Assembly (NCBI GenBank): GCA_002780895.1
Contig: PEUB01000155.1
Span: 1 to 32,154 of the forward strand
Reading direction: 5' to 3'
DNA length: 32,154 nucleotides
Origin: Nitrospirae bacterium CG02_land_8_20_14_3_00_41_53
GTDB taxonomy: Bacteria > Nitrospirota > Thermodesulfovibrionia > Thermodesulfovibrionales > SM23-35
Part shown: one piece after another, positions 7,683-32,146 of the stretch
Layout of the letters: the number at the start of each line of letters is the position of its first letter
Position numbering within the stretch: the first letter of the stretch is position 1
Notes under the pieces: model-generated
Databases searched by the model: none
Told to the model about the DNA's origin: nothing
Seen by the model: only the letters and a program-made list of their open reading frames with translations
Translations under genes and position numbers: made by a program

Positions 7683-7713
7683 CCTTCCTCCATATAGTAT
7701 TTTAATAATCTGC

Positions 7714-7793
7714 TCTGGATTCCCGTTTTCACGGGAATGACGGACACGAAGAAAATGAATAACAGGTCATTCCTGCGGAAGCAGGAATCCAGA
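7714..7793. repeat. 80-bp palindromic intergenic repeat (TCTGGATTCC...GGAATCCAGA)
   Basis: A compound element bounded by perfect 10-bp inverted ends, TCTGGATTCC (7714-7723) and GGAATCCAGA (7784-7793). Inside are two hairpins: ATTCCCG TTTTCA CGGGAAT (7719-7738) and ATTCCTGC GGAA GCAGGAAT (7769-7788). It occupies most of the gap between thpR and recA. When translated it gives the peptide SFLRKQESR, which I recognise as a frequent misannotation product of this repeat class in environmental genomes. A related sequence is present near 15828-15896. Confidence 0.8.
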
Positions 7794-7807
7794 CAAGTTT
7801 TAATCCT

Positions 7808-10110: not shown

Positions 10111-10316
10111 GAATGCAGGAGTTGGTTATTATACTGATAATAGTCCTTGTTCTGTTTGGTGCAACCAGGCTACCGGAAATAGGAAAGGGCATAGGCCAGG
10201 CTATAAGAAACTTCAAGAAGGCTACGTCAGAGCCTGACGAAATAGATGTGACGCCCAAGAAAACTGTATCTCAGGAAAAGAAAAAAGAAGAGACAGAAAA
10301 AAAAGAAGGTGAATAG
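10098..10316 (+). CDS. tatA: Sec-independent translocase subunit TatA/TatE
   Basis: Pore-forming component of the twin-arginine pathway, which moves folded proteins across the inner membrane. The 72-residue sequence has the canonical layout: short N-terminus MFGLGMQE, one transmembrane helix ([13 protein letters not shown]), the hinge [21 protein letters not shown] amphipathic helix, and a charged Lys/Glu-rich tail. AGGAGG precedes the ATG. The gene is wedged between mobA (13-nt overlap) and alr (8-nt overlap), so it is translated as part of this operon. Confidence 0.96.
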
Positions 10317-11508
10317 AGGAGCCGTTGCAGAGATTAATCTATCGGCGATAGCGCATAATCTCCAGTCTGTCAGAAAGATTGTCAAAAACCGACCAGTAAT
10401 TGCTGTGGTTAAGGCCGATGCATACGGTCACGGCGCTATGGAAGTTTCAAAAAAATTGTTTAAGGAGAACATCTCTTTCATAGCGGTAGCATTTACAGGA
10501 GAGGCTATAGAACTCAGAGAGGCAGGTATCAAAGCCCCGATAATCGTATTATTTGACACTGGAGAAATAAAGGATTTTTTTGATTTTAAGCTCATTCCAG
10601 TTATCTATAATGTGGATACTGCATTGTCTTTCTCGGCTGAAGCAAAAAAAAGAAATACTATAATAAAAGTCCATGTGAAGATTGATACCGGTATGGGGAG
10701 GATGGGATTAAACGGCAATTATATTGCCAGAGATTTAATAAAAATATCAGAGATGGATGGTATAGAACTAACAGGACTTTTAAGCCATTTTTCAGAGGCT
10801 GATCTCTCAGACAGGTCATATGCAGTTCTACAGCTTAACAGGTTTAATAAAATTAGAGAAACAATCTCCGGAAAATTAAAAAGAAAATTCTTCTCACATA
10901 TAGCGAACAGTGCGGCTGTCCTTACCTTTGAAGATGCACATCTTGATGCAGTAAGACCAGGGCTTATGCTTTATGGGTATTCGCCCATTAATCAGAAATC
11001 AGAAGTCAGCCCCCCCACCCATCCCTCCCCCTCGAGGGGGGAGGGCGAGGGTGGGGGTGAAGACTCCGAACCCCGCACCACGAGCCCCGAACTTATAAAC
11101 CTGATACCTGCGATGAAAATCAAGACTAAAATCCTCTGTATAAGAAGCTTTCCCTCTGGTTCGCCAATAAGCTACGGAAGAACGTTTATAACAAAAAGGC
11201 CGAGCAGAATAGGAGTGCTTCCGCTAGGATACGCTGACGGGTATAGCAGGTTTTTTTCAAATAATGCAGAAGTACTTGTGAAAGGAAAACGAGTACCTGT
11301 TGTTGGCAGGATATGTATGGACCTGACAATGATTGACATCACAGATGTCAAAGATGTTAGGGGAAACGATGAAGTAATAATTCTCGGAAAACAGGGGAAA
11401 GAGTCAATAACAGCTCAGGAACTTGCATATAAAGCAAATACTATATCATATGAAATCCTGACATCTCTCGGTAATAAATCAAAGAGAATTTATGTTGAGA
11501 CTCATTGA
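10309..11508 (+). CDS. alr: alanine racemase with an in-frame repeat insertion
   Basis: PLP enzyme interconverting L- and D-alanine for peptidoglycan. [10 protein letters not shown] (33-42) carries the PLP lysine Lys35; [16 protein letters not shown], the ARPGLMLYG-type segment [12 protein letters not shown] and GYADGYSR with the catalytic Tyr (about residue 307) are all present, ending [15 protein letters not shown]. Start is GTG at 10309, overlapping tatA; no ATG offers the conserved [13 protein letters not shown]-terminus. The 399-residue length exceeds the usual 360-375 because residues about 232-262 ([21 protein letters not shown] and following) are encoded by a G/C-rich palindromic repeat inserted between the two domains. 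The frame is intact and the enzyme is probably functional. Confidence 0.95.
11010..11059. repeat. G/C-rich palindromic repeat copy B, inside alr
   Basis: A C-tract run followed by CCCTCGAGGGGG and G-tracts forms a near-perfect hairpin centred on CTCGAG at 11031-11036. It is contained in frame in alr and encodes a Pro/Gly/Ser/Glu-rich loop absent from the normal enzyme. The arrangement is like copy A at 551-613. Confidence 0.75.
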
Positions 11509-15064: not shown

Positions 15065-15118
15065 ATACTTATCTATCTATGAAATACTTGCACAACTTTT
15101 TCATAGATAGATAAGTAT
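15065..15118. repeat. perfect 20-bp inverted repeat between PA2779-like and C39 genes
   Basis: ATACTTATCTATCTATGAAA (15065-15084) is followed after a 14-nt spacer by its exact reverse complement (15099-15118). The arms are A/T-rich with a tandem TCTA/TAGA pattern. It could be a stem-loop terminator or attenuator (no strong T-tract follows), or a paired operator. Confidence 0.7.
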
Positions 15119-19376: not shown

Positions 19377-19669
19377 AATGGACTGGCCCTGCAAAACAAG
19401 ATTTAAAATTGGTTCATGATTACATCGCAAGGGATTCTAAATTCTACGCAGAAAAGGTATCACTTGAAATCATTGAGAAATCCGAAAAATTAAATATCTT
19501 CCCTGAAATTGGTAGAATCGTTCCAGAAATAGGCGACCCTAAGATTCGAGAGTTGTTGATATATTCCTATCGTCTTATTTATGAAATATTTCCCGATAAG
19601 ATTGCGATACTTGCATTAATTCATGGCAAAAGAGATTTTTCAAAAATAAATTTGGAAGGTAGAAGATAA
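19370..19669 (+). CDS. ParE/RelE-superfamily toxin
   Basis: A 99-residue toxin of the ParE/RelE fold. Diagnostic features: WTGPAKQDLKLVHDYIARDS at the N-terminus, an inner helix, KLNIFPEIGRIVPEIGDPKIRELLIYSYRLIYEIFPDKIAILALIHGKRDF, which is the typical P-x-x-GR...RELLIxxYRLIYE...HGxRDF ending. The ParE branch (gyrase inhibitor) fits better than the RelE mRNA interferase branch but cannot be settled by eye. GTG start at 19370 inside the antitoxin gene. Its stop lies within the shared terminator with acs. Confidence 0.88.
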   Translation: MVEWTGPAKQDLKLVHDYIARDSKFYAEKVSLEIIEKSEKLNIFPEIGRIVPEIGDPKIRELLIYSYRLIYEIFPDKIAILALIHGKRDFSKINLEGRR

Positions 19670-19718
19670 TAAATGAACAACCCTGCGGTCTCTGCCGCAG
19701 GGTTGTTCATTTATTATC
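19665..19718. terminator. bidirectional terminator, perfect 24-bp stem
   Basis: Arms 19665-19688 and 19695-19718 are exact reverse complements with a 6-nt loop TCTCTG; the core is CAACCCTGCGG/CCGCAGGGTTG with A/T-rich outer arms that give T-tracts in both directions. The stem includes the stop codons of the toxin (19667-19669) and of acs (19714-19716), which converge here. Confidence 0.92.
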
Positions 19719-21621
19719 TTATCATCTTTTTAAATTCTTCATAGGCCGTTTTTATTTCCTCTACCGAGGCTTCATCCTCTAAGGTTGTAACATCTCCGAT
19801 GGGTTTATCCTGAACAATTGCTTTCAATATCCGCCTCATAATCTTGCCAGACCTTGTTTTTGGAAGTTTTTCGACAAAGTAAATCTCCTGAGGTGTAGCA
19901 AATGGACCTATCTGTGTACGGATGCTATCAATTATCTTCTTTTTAAGGCTATCATCAGGATTATACCCTTGTTTCAGTATCACAAATATGACGATTGCCT
20001 CTCCTTTTATGGGGTCAGCCATACCTACTACCGCAGCTTCTGCGGCAAAAGGTGTTGCAACAACTGCACCCTCAATCTCTGCTGTACCTATCCTGTGCCC
20101 GGCTACTTTTAATATCTCATCAGCCCTTCCCAACAGCCAGAAATATCCTTCTTCGTCCTTCATTGCATAATCTGCTGTGTAATACATGCCTTTAAATTTT
20201 GACCAGTATGTTTCTTTGTAACGATCCGGGTCTTCATAAATCCCCATCAACATGCCGGGCCAGGGCTTTTTTATTACCAAATAGCCTTTCGTTCCAGGAG
20301 GCACAGGATTCCCTGTGTCATCTACTACTTCTGCATCAATACCGGGTAAAGGCAAGGTTGCTGAACCTGGCTTAAGTGGGACAAGTTCCAGGCCGGGAGA
20401 AGGTGATATCATCATACCTCCGGTTTCTGTCTGCCACCAGGTGTCAACTATAGGACACCTTTCATTACCGATATTCTTGTAATACCACTCCCATACTTCC
20501 GGGTTGATAGGTTCACCAACAGTTCCCAATATCTTTAAGCTGCTTAAATCATGTTTCTTAATCCATTCTTCCCCATAGCGTATGAACATCCTGAGCGCTG
20601 TTGGCGAGGTGTAAAAGATTGTAACCCCGTATTTTTCTATAATCTCCCACCATTTATCCAGATAAGGAAAATCCGGTGCCCCTTCGTATATAACAATCGT
20701 TGCACCGTGGAGTAATGGCGCATATACTATTGCTGAGTGCCCTGTGACCCAGCCAACATCCGCAGTGCACCAATAAATGGATTCATCTGATATGTCGAAA
20801 ACCCACTTATATGTCGCATAGTTGTAAACCAAATATCCGCCTGTAGAGTGGACGATCCCTTTAGGTTTTCCCGTGGTACCTGATGTGTAGAGTATATACA
20901 ATGGATGGGTAGATTCTACAGGCTCAGGTTCCACATAGTTTTCAGCATTCTTTAATAATTCATGATAAAGTAAGTCCCGACCTTCCTCTATCTTTACCTC
21001 TTTTTCGGTTCTTTTTATTAATACTACCTTTTTAATAGATGGAGTAAGCTTTAATGCATTATCAACAATATCTTTAAGGGGAACAAATTTTCCTCTTCTT
21101 ATACCAAAGTCAGCGGTTATCAAAACCTTTGCCCGTGTATCATTTATCCTGTCTGCTAATGCCTGACTGCTGAATCCTGAGAATACAACAGTATGAATAG
21201 CGCCAATCCTAACTGTTGCGAGCATTGAAAACACAAGCTCGGGGATCATTGGAAGGTATAAAACTACTATATCACCTTTTTCTACGCCGATTTTTTTCAG
21301 GACAGATGCTAACTTATTTACTTCCCTATGCAACTGGACATAACTAAATGATTTTGTATTCCCTTGTTCGTCTTCCCAGTATATTGCTACTTTATTCTTA
21401 CGCCATGAATGTAAATGAGCGTCAATACATCCATAAGAGGCATTAAGCATACCGCCGACGAACCATTTTGCAAACGGCTCATCCCAGACGAGAACCTTTT
21501 CCCAGCGTTTAAACCAGGGGATTTTCTCTGCTTCTTTCTCCCAGAAGCTCTCTAAGTTTGCAATTGCATTCTTTTGAAATTCAAGATATCTTTTTGTAGG
21601 ATAAAACTTTTTCCCTTCCAT
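19714..21621 (-). CDS. acs: acetyl-CoA synthetase (AMP-forming)
   Basis: Activates acetate to acetyl-CoA through an acetyl-AMP intermediate. The 635-residue protein has the ANL-superfamily motifs: P-loop YTSGTTGKPKGIVHSTGG, WWQTETGG, YYTADYAMKDEEGYFWLLGRADE, the hinge and VAGHRIGTAEIE, and the acetylatable catalytic Lys at about residue 593 in KTRSGKIMRR. VDTWWQTETGG with Trp fits acetate rather than longer acids. GAGGTGAT precedes the ATG at 21621. It is a single-gene unit, converging with the toxin-antitoxin pair and diverging from the aminotransferase. Confidence 0.96.
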   Translation of the reverse strand: MEGKKFYPTKRYLEFQKNAIANLESFWEKEAEKIPWFKRWEKVLVWDEPFAKWFVGGMLNASYGCIDAHLHSWRKNKVAIYWEDEQGNTKSFSYVQLHREVNKLASVLKKIGVEKGDIVVLYLPMIPELVFSMLATVRIGAIHTVVFSGFSSQALADRINDTRAKVLITADFGIRRGKFVPLKDIVDNALKLTPSIKKVVLIKRTEKEVKIEEGRDLLYHELLKNAENYVEPEPVESTHPLYILYTSGTTGKPKGIVHSTGGYLVYNYATYKWVFDISDESIYWCTADVGWVTGHSAIVYAPLLHGATIVIYEGAPDFPYLDKWWEIIEKYGVTIFYTSPTALRMFIRYGEEWIKKHDLSSLKILGTVGEPINPEVWEWYYKNIGNERCPIVDTWWQTETGGMMISPSPGLELVPLKPGSATLPLPGIDAEVVDDTGNPVPPGTKGYLVIKKPWPGMLMGIYEDPDRYKETYWSKFKGMYYTADYAMKDEEGYFWLLGRADEILKVAGHRIGTAEIEGAVVATPFAAEAAVVGMADPIKGEAIVIFVILKQGYNPDDSLKKKIIDSIRTQIGPFATPQEIYFVEKLPKTRSGKIMRRILKAIVQDKPIGDVTTLEDEASVEEIKTAYEEFKKMIR

Positions 21622-23903: not shown

Positions 23904-24356
23904 ATGTTAATACAGATGAAGGTTGAGGGTCTGTTATTCGATCCTCGCAGTAATATGTATATCATGCTTTTGAAGGAAATTGATGGTAATGGTACCCTTC
24001 CAATATGGATTGGCAAACCAGAGGCTGATTCGATAGCTCTCGCATTAGGGAGGGTTGAAACACCAAGACCTTTAACTCATGATCTTATAAAAAATATTAC
24101 TGACAGCCTGAAGCTCAGAATAACAAAAATCATAGTAACAGAGCTTCAGGACAATACATATTATGCACTTGTCTGTCTTAACGATGGTAAGAAAGAGACC
24201 TTTGTAGATTCAAGACCGAGTGATGCTGTAGCAGTAGCGCTAAGGGCCAATGCACTTATATTTGTAGAAGACAGCATATTGGAGCAAAAAAGCGCTGACG
24301 AGCTTGAGGAATGGCTCAAAAATCTCAAACCAGAAGACTTCGGGAATATAATATAA
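23904..24356 (+). CDS. bifunctional nuclease (DUF151/BFN) family protein
   Basis: A 150-residue protein of the BFN family, first described in Thermotoga and in plants as a nuclease acting on DNA and RNA. Family features: LPIWIGKPEADSIALAL, RPLTHDLIKNI, ITKIIVTELQDNTYYALV and SRPSDAVAVALRANALIFVEDSIL. The acidic and His residues proposed for catalysis lie in these segments. ATG directly follows the era stop, and its own stop shares a base with the recO start, so era-BFN-recO is one unit. Physiological role unclear in bacteria. Confidence 0.92.
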   Translation: MLIQMKVEGLLFDPRSNMYIMLLKEIDGNGTLPIWIGKPEADSIALALGRVETPRPLTHDLIKNITDSLKLRITKIIVTELQDNTYYALVCLNDGKKETFVDSRPSDAVAVALRANALIFVEDSILEQKSADELEEWLKNLKPEDFGNII

Positions 24357-25228
24357 TGCTTCACAGGACAGAAGGTATTGTCTTAAGAACAATTCCCTTT
24401 GGCGAAGCAGACCTGATAGTTACATATCTTACTCCTGATTTTGGACTTCTAAAAACCTTTGCAAAAAGTCCTCGCAAGATTAAAAGTAGATTTGGAAGCA
24501 GCCTTGAGCCACTTACACGCTCAAGGATATCATTCTGGGGCAAAGAAGATGCAGCCCTGCCGAGATTGACACAGTCGGATATCATCCATCCATTCCAGTG
24601 GATAAGAGATACCCTGGATTGTTTTTTGAAGGTATCAGAGATAATTGAGCTTACCATAAACTTTATCCCTGAGAGAGATGCTAATAAGAAAGTTTATTCT
24701 TTACTTCTAAATACATTACAAGCCATCGAAAATAATCTATCCTCACACATTCCTTCTTGTGAAAGCGTCAGAACATCTCGCACCCCCCTTTGGAAAAGGG
24801 ATAATTCCCCTCAGTCCCCCTTTAGTAAAGGGGGATTTAAGGGGGATTATAAAGAGGGTAAGGTGGTATTTTCAGATGAGAATTTATTGATAAATCACTA
24901 CAAAATAAAATTTCTTAAGTTTGTTGGATATGCCCCTAAGCTTGACGCCTGTGGAAGATGCGGGAAAAGCGGACATTCTTTTTATATATCCCATGGCTCT
25001 ATCTTATGCGAAGCATGTGCAAAAGGGATTGACTTGCCAATAAGACTTTCCGGGGCAGTTTTAAAACTCTATACCGACCTGCTTACGTGGGATGCTGTTA
25101 TGATAAAACGAATAAAACCTTCAGACAAGCTTCTTTCAGAGCTTTCGGACATAATAAATGTGCATATAAAATACATACTCGCTAAACCATTAAAGTCCGA
25201 GGCATTTATTCATTCGATAACCAGATAA
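24356..25228 (+). CDS. recO: DNA repair protein RecO with an in-frame repeat insertion
   Basis: RecO loads RecA onto SSB-coated DNA in the RecFOR pathway. The start is ATG at 24356 in a TAATG overlap; MLHRTEGIVLRTIPFGEADLIVTYLTPDFGLLKTFAKSPRK is the typical OB-fold N-terminus. A zinc-ribbon (CGRCG...CEAC) and helical C-terminal domain follow. The 290-residue length exceeds the usual 240-260: residues about 140-165 (TPLWKRDNSPQSPFSKGGFKGDYKEG) are encoded by a palindromic repeat lying between the helical domain and the zinc ribbon. The frame is intact and the domains around it are complete. Confidence 0.93.
   Translation: MLHRTEGIVLRTIPFGEADLIVTYLTPDFGLLKTFAKSPRKIKSRFGSSLEPLTRSRISFWGKEDAALPRLTQSDIIHPFQWIRDTLDCFLKVSEIIELTINFIPERDANKKVYSLLLNTLQAIENNLSSHIPSCESVRTSRTPLWKRDNSPQSPFSKGGFKGDYKEGKVVFSDENLLINHYKIKFLKFVGYAPKLDACGRCGKSGHSFYISHGSILCEACAKGIDLPIRLSGAVLKLYTDLLTWDAVMIKRIKPSDKLLSELSDIINVHIKYILAKPLKSEAFIHSITR
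24781..24850. repeat. palindromic repeat copy D, inside recO
   Basis: A C-rich/G-rich element containing the 19-nt core CCCCCTTTAGTAAAGGGGG (within 24815-24835, a perfect hairpin with loop AGT) plus flanking CACCCCCCTTTGGAAAAGGG and a downstream GGGGGATT. The same 19-nt core occurs inside the tRNA nucleotidyltransferase gene at 31744-31764. Confidence 0.85.
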
Positions 25229-30901: not shown

Positions 30902-32146
30902 ATGTTAATATTTACCATGATACTTTCACATTACGAGCTCAAGACTAAGATACTCGCAGAGAGATATAACTCAATCATCTTCGAGGTTGGAAAGAATAGA
31001 GATTTATACCTTGTTGGTGGTTATATTCGCGACATTTTTAGAGGCATACATTCTCCAGATAGAGATTATATTGTTAGCGGAGACATAAGAACATTTGTTA
31101 AAGAAATCAGAAAAGTTATTGGGGGCACTCTAGTCAAATTCAAAAAGGGAGACATGATAAGGATTGCCTTTAAAGATGGTCTCACATTTGATTTTTCAAA
31201 ACTTATTGGTACACTTAAAGAAGATTTGTCAAAAAGGGATTTTACCATTAATGCAATCGCTTGGTCACCCGAAAAAGAAATTATAGACCTTTGTAATGGA
31301 CTGGAGGACTTAAAAAGGAAGCGAATACGTTCTCTATCAAGTGAAAACTTAATTTCTGATCCCCTGAGAATGCTCAGAGCCTACAGGTTTGCGGCTGAAA
31401 TAAACGGTTCAATAGAAAAAGGAACGCGTGATTCAATAAAAACACTGAATAATAATATTAAAAAGGTATCTTCTGAAAGAATAACTTTAGAACTTTTCAA
31501 TTTGTTAAACTCAAAACATTCAGCAAGGTATCTGAAGATGGCACTTTCTGATGGACTCTTAACTGATATTTTATCCATTCCCTATAGAAACTTAGAGCGC
31601 AGCATTAAAGAAATTTCTAAACTCGAACAAACTACAATTAATAAACTTCCATCAAAAATTCAAGCTTTACTTAAAAGGATATTTTCTCAAAACCTTACAT
31701 ATAAAGGATTGTTCTGCCTGGAGCTTTTAATAATCCCCCCACACCCCCCTTTAGTAAAGGGGGGCAGGGGGGATTTTCAGGTAAAAATTAAGATGAGCTC
31801 TGCTATCAATAAACGCTTAGAATTGAGCCATAAAGGTATCAAGGAGCTAAAAAGAAAAGGAGTTGACTTGAAGAATAGATTGTTCGACATATTTTTAATA
31901 TCAAAAGAAGCAGCGCCTGACATCCTGATTATAAAAGGTAGGTTAGATTTGATAAAAGATTACCAAAGGTTTAAGAGAATTTGGAATAAGGGGTTTTTAA
32001 GCTCTGAAGATATAATTAGCATTACAGATGTTAAGCCAGGCCCAAAACTTGGGAAAATCATAATAGAATTAAAGAGGGCTCAATTTGAGGGTAGAATAAG
32101 GTCTAAAAGGGCAGCGATAAAATTTATAGAAAAGCTTCGTGGTTGA
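30902..32146 (+). CDS. tRNA nucleotidyltransferase/poly(A) polymerase family protein with repeat insertion
   Basis: Class II nucleotidyltransferase that adds or repairs the 3' CCA of tRNA, or part of it. Motifs: YLVGGYIRDIFRG with PDRDYIV (catalytic DxD), KRDFTINAIAW, DLCNGLEDLKRKRIRSL, SDPLRMLRAYRFAAE (nucleotide-selecting Asp and Arg) and SSERITLELFNLL. The Glu that usually precedes the Asp-Pro-Leu-Arg motif is Ser. The C-terminus ends GKIIIELKRAQFEGRIRSKRAAIKFIEK. Residues about 277-292 (IPPHPPLVKGGRGDF) come from a palindromic repeat. Whether it is a full CCA-adding, CC- or A-adding enzyme cannot be read here; the neighbouring tRNA already encodes CCA, consistent with repair. Start may be ATG 30902 or 30917. 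Confidence 0.88.
   Translation: MLIFTMILSHYELKTKILAERYNSIIFEVGKNRDLYLVGGYIRDIFRGIHSPDRDYIVSGDIRTFVKEIRKVIGGTLVKFKKGDMIRIAFKDGLTFDFSKLIGTLKEDLSKRDFTINAIAWSPEKEIIDLCNGLEDLKRKRIRSLSSENLISDPLRMLRAYRFAAEINGSIEKGTRDSIKTLNNNIKKVSSERITLELFNLLNSKHSARYLKMALSDGLLTDILSIPYRNLERSIKEISKLEQTTINKLPSKIQALLKRIFSQNLTYKGLFCLELLIIPPHPPLVKGGRGDFQVKIKMSSAINKRLELSHKGIKELKRKGVDLKNRLFDIFLISKEAAPDILIIKGRLDLIKDYQRFKRIWNKGFLSSEDIISITDVKPGPKLGKIIIELKRAQFEGRIRSKRAAIKFIEKLRG
31732..31775. repeat. palindromic repeat copy E, inside tRNA nucleotidyltransferase gene
   Basis: AATCCCCCC (31732-31740) and GGGGGGATT (31767-31775) flank a perfect hairpin, 31744-31764, containing CCCCCTTTAGTAAAGGGGG with loop AGT. The whole element is about 44 bp, in frame, and shares its 19-nt core with copy D in recO. 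Confidence 0.88.

Follow-up and report, generated by a model that had tools for sequence, protein, structure and literature searches.

Palindromes that form part of protein-coding genes are known mainly from Rickettsia and Wolbachia. The palindromic elements of these bacteria (RPEs in Rickettsia) are inserted in frame into unrelated genes, and different repeat groups occupy identical or nearby positions in orthologous genes (PMC10969869, PMC3767692). RPEs are 100–150 bp long, and nearly half of the first 44 were located in genes (PMC3767692). RPE-4/6 have been classed with intragenic REPs (PMC3733652). Bacterial MITEs, which are short and non-autonomous and have terminal inverted repeats, give rise to occasional in-frame fusions (PMC10969869). 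A search of the open-access literature (subscription papers were outside its scope) revealed no description of the 44-nt family in Nitrospirota which we report here.

The family was encountered in a contig of Nitrospirae bacterium CG02_land_8_20_14_3_00_41_53 (PEUB01000155.1, 32 154 nucleotides, analysed over its whole length and referred to as the window). It resembles RPEs in being inserted in frame into unrelated protein genes, with 78 of 100 copies in ORFs and with empty sites in relatives. However, its length of 44–45 nt does not agree with the ∼100–150 bp of RPEs, it uses four to five reading frames with 78% of ∼100 copies in ORFs, it is hosted by Nitrospirota, Nitrospinota and others, and its arrangement is also different; this comparison is based on the published description of RPEs. 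With the GTAG/CGTC-tagged REPs, some of which are intragenic (PMC3733652), it shares the short high-copy hairpins, but it lacks the tag, no copy flanking a Y1 gene was found among 20 loci, and it is mostly genic rather than intergenic. The 9-nt perfect terminal inverted repeats, the short and non-autonomous nature and the in-frame copies are reminiscent of MITEs, although the element is shorter and no target-site duplication was detected in the flanks of the 44-nt unit. Its behaviour matches that of RPEs and of intragenic REPs. As its length is not that of RPEs, the tag is lacking and none of the Y1 loci examined carries a copy, we assign it to neither RPEs nor RAYT-REPs.

The copy in the CCA-adding type nucleotidyltransferase gene has the sequence AATCCCCCCACACCCCCCTTTAGTAAAGGGGGGCAGGGGGGATT, a double hairpin of two nested inverted repeats (Table 1). 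As single-stranded RNA it has a folding energy of -32.8 kcal/mol (z = -4.6). Its 9-nt ends, called exactly inverted in the preliminary description, are perfect reverse complements. The host ORF matches PF01743 (PolyA_pol head domain, E 2.8e-17) and PF12627, shows 41–66% identity to its orthologs within the family and reads through the element in frame as ...LELLIIPPHPPLVKGGRGDFQVKIKMS.... A 19-nt core shared with recO and read there in another frame had also been claimed, and both points hold: CCCCCTTTAGTAAAGGGGG is exact at 24816–24834 (recO) and 31745–31763 (cca-type gene), with 0.01 matches expected in the window by shuffling, and the resulting peptides are NSPQSPFSKGGFKGDY and LELLIIPPHPPLVKGGRGDFQVKIKMS, respectively. 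In recO the insert comprises ∼45 aa, and nearly the whole stretch is missing from most relatives. The cca insert occupies a loop that is variable in every relative, the net gain in the ortholog comparison being only ∼5–8 aa. With its loop already variable among relatives, the cca copy is not the best example of insertion.

Table 1. Positions of the palindromic elements, their parts and their host genes in the window.
Feature	Position	Strand	Remarks
44-nt palindromic element	31732..31775	+	in CCA/poly(A)-polymerase-type gene; peptide IPPHPPLVKGGRGD
Left outer arm AATCCCCCC	31732..31740	+	exact reverse complement of 31767–31775
Inner hairpin CCCCCCTTT-AGT-AAAGGGGGG	31744..31764	+	nested between outer arms
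Right outer arm GGGGGGATT	31767..31775	+	pairs with 31732–31740
3' tail TTCAGGTAAA of cca element	31776..31785	+	one mismatch to tail TTCAGGTGAA
Host gene of CCA-adding type: nucleotidyltransferase of 414 aa with PolyA_pol head domain	30902..32146	+	Pfam matches
46-nt sister element	24803..24848	+	in recO; peptide NSPQSPFSKGGFKGDY
Degenerate half-hairpin CCCCCCTTTGGAAAAGGG	24783..24800	+	adjoins recO element; within longer recO insert
Host gene recO	24356..25228	+	PF11967 and PF02565 (RecO_N and RecO_C) in same protein
Second, unrelated palindromic family (CCCTCCCCCTCGAGGGGGGAGGG type)	11011..11065	+	inside alanine racemase ORF 10252–11505; 17-residue peptide

The window contains further repeats. 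The copy of the CCCTCCCCCTCGAGGGGGGAGGG-type family in the alanine racemase gene lies between the two domains of the protein, and the family is also represented at 575–611. At 7707–7800, paired GGATTCCCG...CGGGAATGAC palindromes are located outside long ORFs; they may resemble a type of repeat found widely among bacteria. Two hairpins with 26-nt arms at 19663–19720 (100% complementary) and 15065–15118 (92%), also outside long ORFs, are possibly transcription terminators.

The exact core CCCCCTTTNGNAAAGGGGG is present in 100 copies in the genome to which the window belongs (2.0 Mb, 159 contigs), the reversed control in none. All 100 copies were fetched together with their flanks. With a minimum ORF length of 150 aa, 78 copies are in frame within ORFs, compared with 85% of random positions (p = 0.07); for ORFs of at least 250 aa the values are 73 copies and 74%. 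The element is distributed almost as though genes were no obstacle. Several hosts carry two copies per ORF (loci L020, L024, L028 and L043). Likely hosts include TrpB, MurD, AroA, GlmU, DapF and MutL. Host ORFs were called by length alone; matching to Pfam or solved structures covered the cca-type gene, recO and TrpB, and the other names (MurD, GlmU, MutL etc.) come from conserved motifs recognised in the translations. A codon-bias classifier for gene context proved too weak and was replaced by ORF length plus homology. Genic copies in this genome comprise 49 asymmetrical 44-mers versus 14 45-mers, non-genic copies one 44-mer versus nine symmetrical 45-mers. A rule of 44 versus 45 nt for genic copies fails elsewhere, 91 of 115 45-nt copies in other genomes being genic. 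Several copies (L020, L024, L038, L072) are bordered by short tandem repeats such as AGTCAAAAGTC / TCAGAAG, and repeats of this type occupy the same protein loops in orthologs from other genera.

The reading frames of the genic copies are restricted. The common A-first loops introduce a stop into one forward and one reverse frame, leaving the common form open in four of six. The genic copies are distributed over the frames as follows: f0 26, f2 22, r2 16, r0 11, f1 3 and r1 0; all three f1 copies have the loop GGA, which opens f1. Among the 22 non-genic copies, read through their own stops, only two resemble disrupted genes, both in closed frames. Apparent disruptions of genes in closed frames amount to at most 2 of 80, where one-third would be expected (p = 7e-12). 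The restriction can be accounted for by the loss of truncated genes alone, and the loops and frames of the copies in this genome give no sign of a sequence open in every frame by design. The earlier proposal that the element is open in at least two frames is correct for the open frames and cannot be extended to all, one forward and one reverse stop occurring at the loop. As an argument for spread it is weak, because any short stop-poor palindrome would have two open frames. The stop-codon test suggested at the time came out in favour of the proposal, the common loops closing only two of six frames and genic copies sitting in open ones.

Comparison with relatives reveals real insertions. TrpB has 19 additional residues relative to three of four orthologs, with 85–90% identity over the searched segment, and alignment to the best-matching solved TrpB-type chain leaves an 18-residue gap at the same place while the remainder aligns. 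A Gfo/Idh-type protein has 18 additional residues relative to four relatives; GlmU and MurD exceed their orthologs by 20 and 21 residues, respectively; D-aminoacylase has inserts of 11–27 residues at two sites. At the DNA level, comparison of the congeners G084 and G088 revealed two genic copies that are absent as stretches of 75 and 60 nt, each divisible by three. Genome G055 was left out of this DNA analysis, most of its copies lying outside long ORFs in composite elements. The idea of an element spreading through coding sequence is supported by the genome-wide copies together with these empty sites; related-genus orthologs and a congener without the insert are what the proposed empty-site comparison yielded.

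Very probably, the element is a small non-autonomous mobile palindromic repeat that is kept in apparently functional genes in tolerated loops and frames and translated with the protein. Such a repeat of ∼44–45 nt, in which the arms AATCCCCCC/GGGGGGATT enclose an inner CCCCCCTTT-NNN-AAAGGGGGG hairpin and which sometimes forms part of longer mosaics, would spread selfishly, would be moved in trans by an enzyme and would insert into the genome roughly according to how much sequence is available. Genic copies in Nitrospirota would persist if the full length of the insert is divisible by three, if the frame avoids the stop codons of the element and if the site is a variable loop, in most cases presumably at the protein surface, that tolerates a Pro/Gly-rich peptide of ∼15–25 residues. 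The insert would then be translated within the protein, typically as NPPxPPxxKGGxGGF. Since the tail TTCAGGTGAA is common to ∼20 copies of the 44-nt family, and mosaics with the same parts exist in some other genomes, certain subfamilies may have a mobile unit that exceeds 44 nt.

The same sites are used more than once. Of 69 ortholog sites examined, 10 hold a hairpin of the same type; a small number of loci from one genome enter this count twice. As the relatives hold at most ∼31 exact-core copies each, ∼0.1 occupancies would be expected by chance, according to a rough estimate. In HemH and DapF, other genera have the element at an identical position and in an identical phase, as shared descent would allow, and a common origin has been argued for RPE-4/6/7 (PMC3767692). 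A single ancestral insertion per gene, passed on vertically and then diversified, could account for such cases. As an alternative to repeated insertion it is nevertheless unlikely: in DagK, NnrD and D-aminoacylase the copies of relatives from other genera are in another reading phase, the AroA loop of three relatives is filled by an unrelated palindrome-derived peptide of 15 residues, and the site is cleanly empty in four relatives for the Gfo/Idh-type protein and in three of four for TrpB. The palindrome behind the AroA peptide is that found at 11011–11065 and in several fetched loci, and its peptide is also present in the AroA and RecJ proteins of relatives. Because the same loops are elsewhere empty, differently framed or filled by an unrelated palindrome, the alignments favour permissive loops that are re-used by repeated insertion, with some inheritance.

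How the repeat is moved was approached via its flanks and the transposase genes. No excess of matching flanks indicating a target-site duplication was detected for k = 2–6 beyond isolated single copies, and the true ends may sometimes lie beyond the 44 nt; the conserved flank consists only of a T on either side. Mobilisation by a genome-encoded RAYT (Y1 tyrosine transposase), which would make the element a REP/REPIN-type repeat, would agree with short hairpins in high copy number and with the detection of PF01797 in 19 of the 20 family genomes, the genome studied having seven matches. We consider it quite improbable, as none of 20 Y1 (RAYT-type) loci from six genomes contains the element core, whereas RAYT genes are typically flanked by REPs (PMC3733652). 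Moreover, Y1 genes are also present in relatives without any copies, and the foot of the hairpin carries neither a GTAG nor a CGTC tag.

The very stable fold and the symmetry of several intergenic copies might suggest that the hairpin functions as a nucleic acid (as a terminator, an mRNA stabiliser or a binding site for proteins) and is under selection for its structure. This is very improbable, since most copies are genic and in either orientation, which is ill-suited to termination, and since copy numbers range from 0 to 139 among related genomes. Chance, low-complexity sequence or an assembly artefact, suggested at most by the simple C- and G-runs and by the draft state of the genome (159 contigs), is refuted by the counts, with a reversed control of zero throughout the phylum survey and the element in many independent MAGs.

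Among 296 Nitrospirota genomes sampled, 77 contain exact-core copies, between 0 and 139 per genome, with widely differing numbers inside one genus; the reversed control was zero in every genome. The exact 45-nt form was found in MAGs named as Nitrospirota, Nitrospinota, Deltaproteobacteria, Aminicenantes and Methylomirabilota. Collections of plasmids and phages contained no match to the element, and an origin from either was set aside for this reason. In the named MAGs, copies are located in ORFs in 72 of 86 cases for Nitrospirota, 6 of 7 for Nitrospinota and 3 of 17 for Desulfobacterota-type genomes. The difference between the first and the last group is significant (Fisher p = 2e-7), the fractions for random positions being 83% and 73%. 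Because the Desulfobacterota-type copies are mostly outside ORFs, coding residence is a property of the lineage as well as of the element, and is not intrinsic to the repeat sequence. In genome G055 (L322, L327, L331), larger mosaics, for the most part located outside long ORFs, combine the element with CACAAAGGACAATGAAAAT and ATTTTCAGGTGAA modules.

It is possible, though we remain doubtful, that in related Nitrospirota the same permissive loops of core enzymes are entered time and again by several unrelated palindrome families, which thus provide a continuing and general route of protein change, while Desulfobacterota copies stay mostly outside genes. If this is true, coding sequence would be targeted, or insertions into it tolerated, in a lineage-specific manner. 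An abundant family in widespread environmental bacteria offers an independent test of whether shared sites are hotspots or relics of one insertion. Hotspots of separate insertion are favoured here, because the same sites are found empty, differently framed and with unrelated fillings. For annotation, the finding is a warning that stretches of the type NPPxPPxxKGGxGGF in such proteins derive from repeats.
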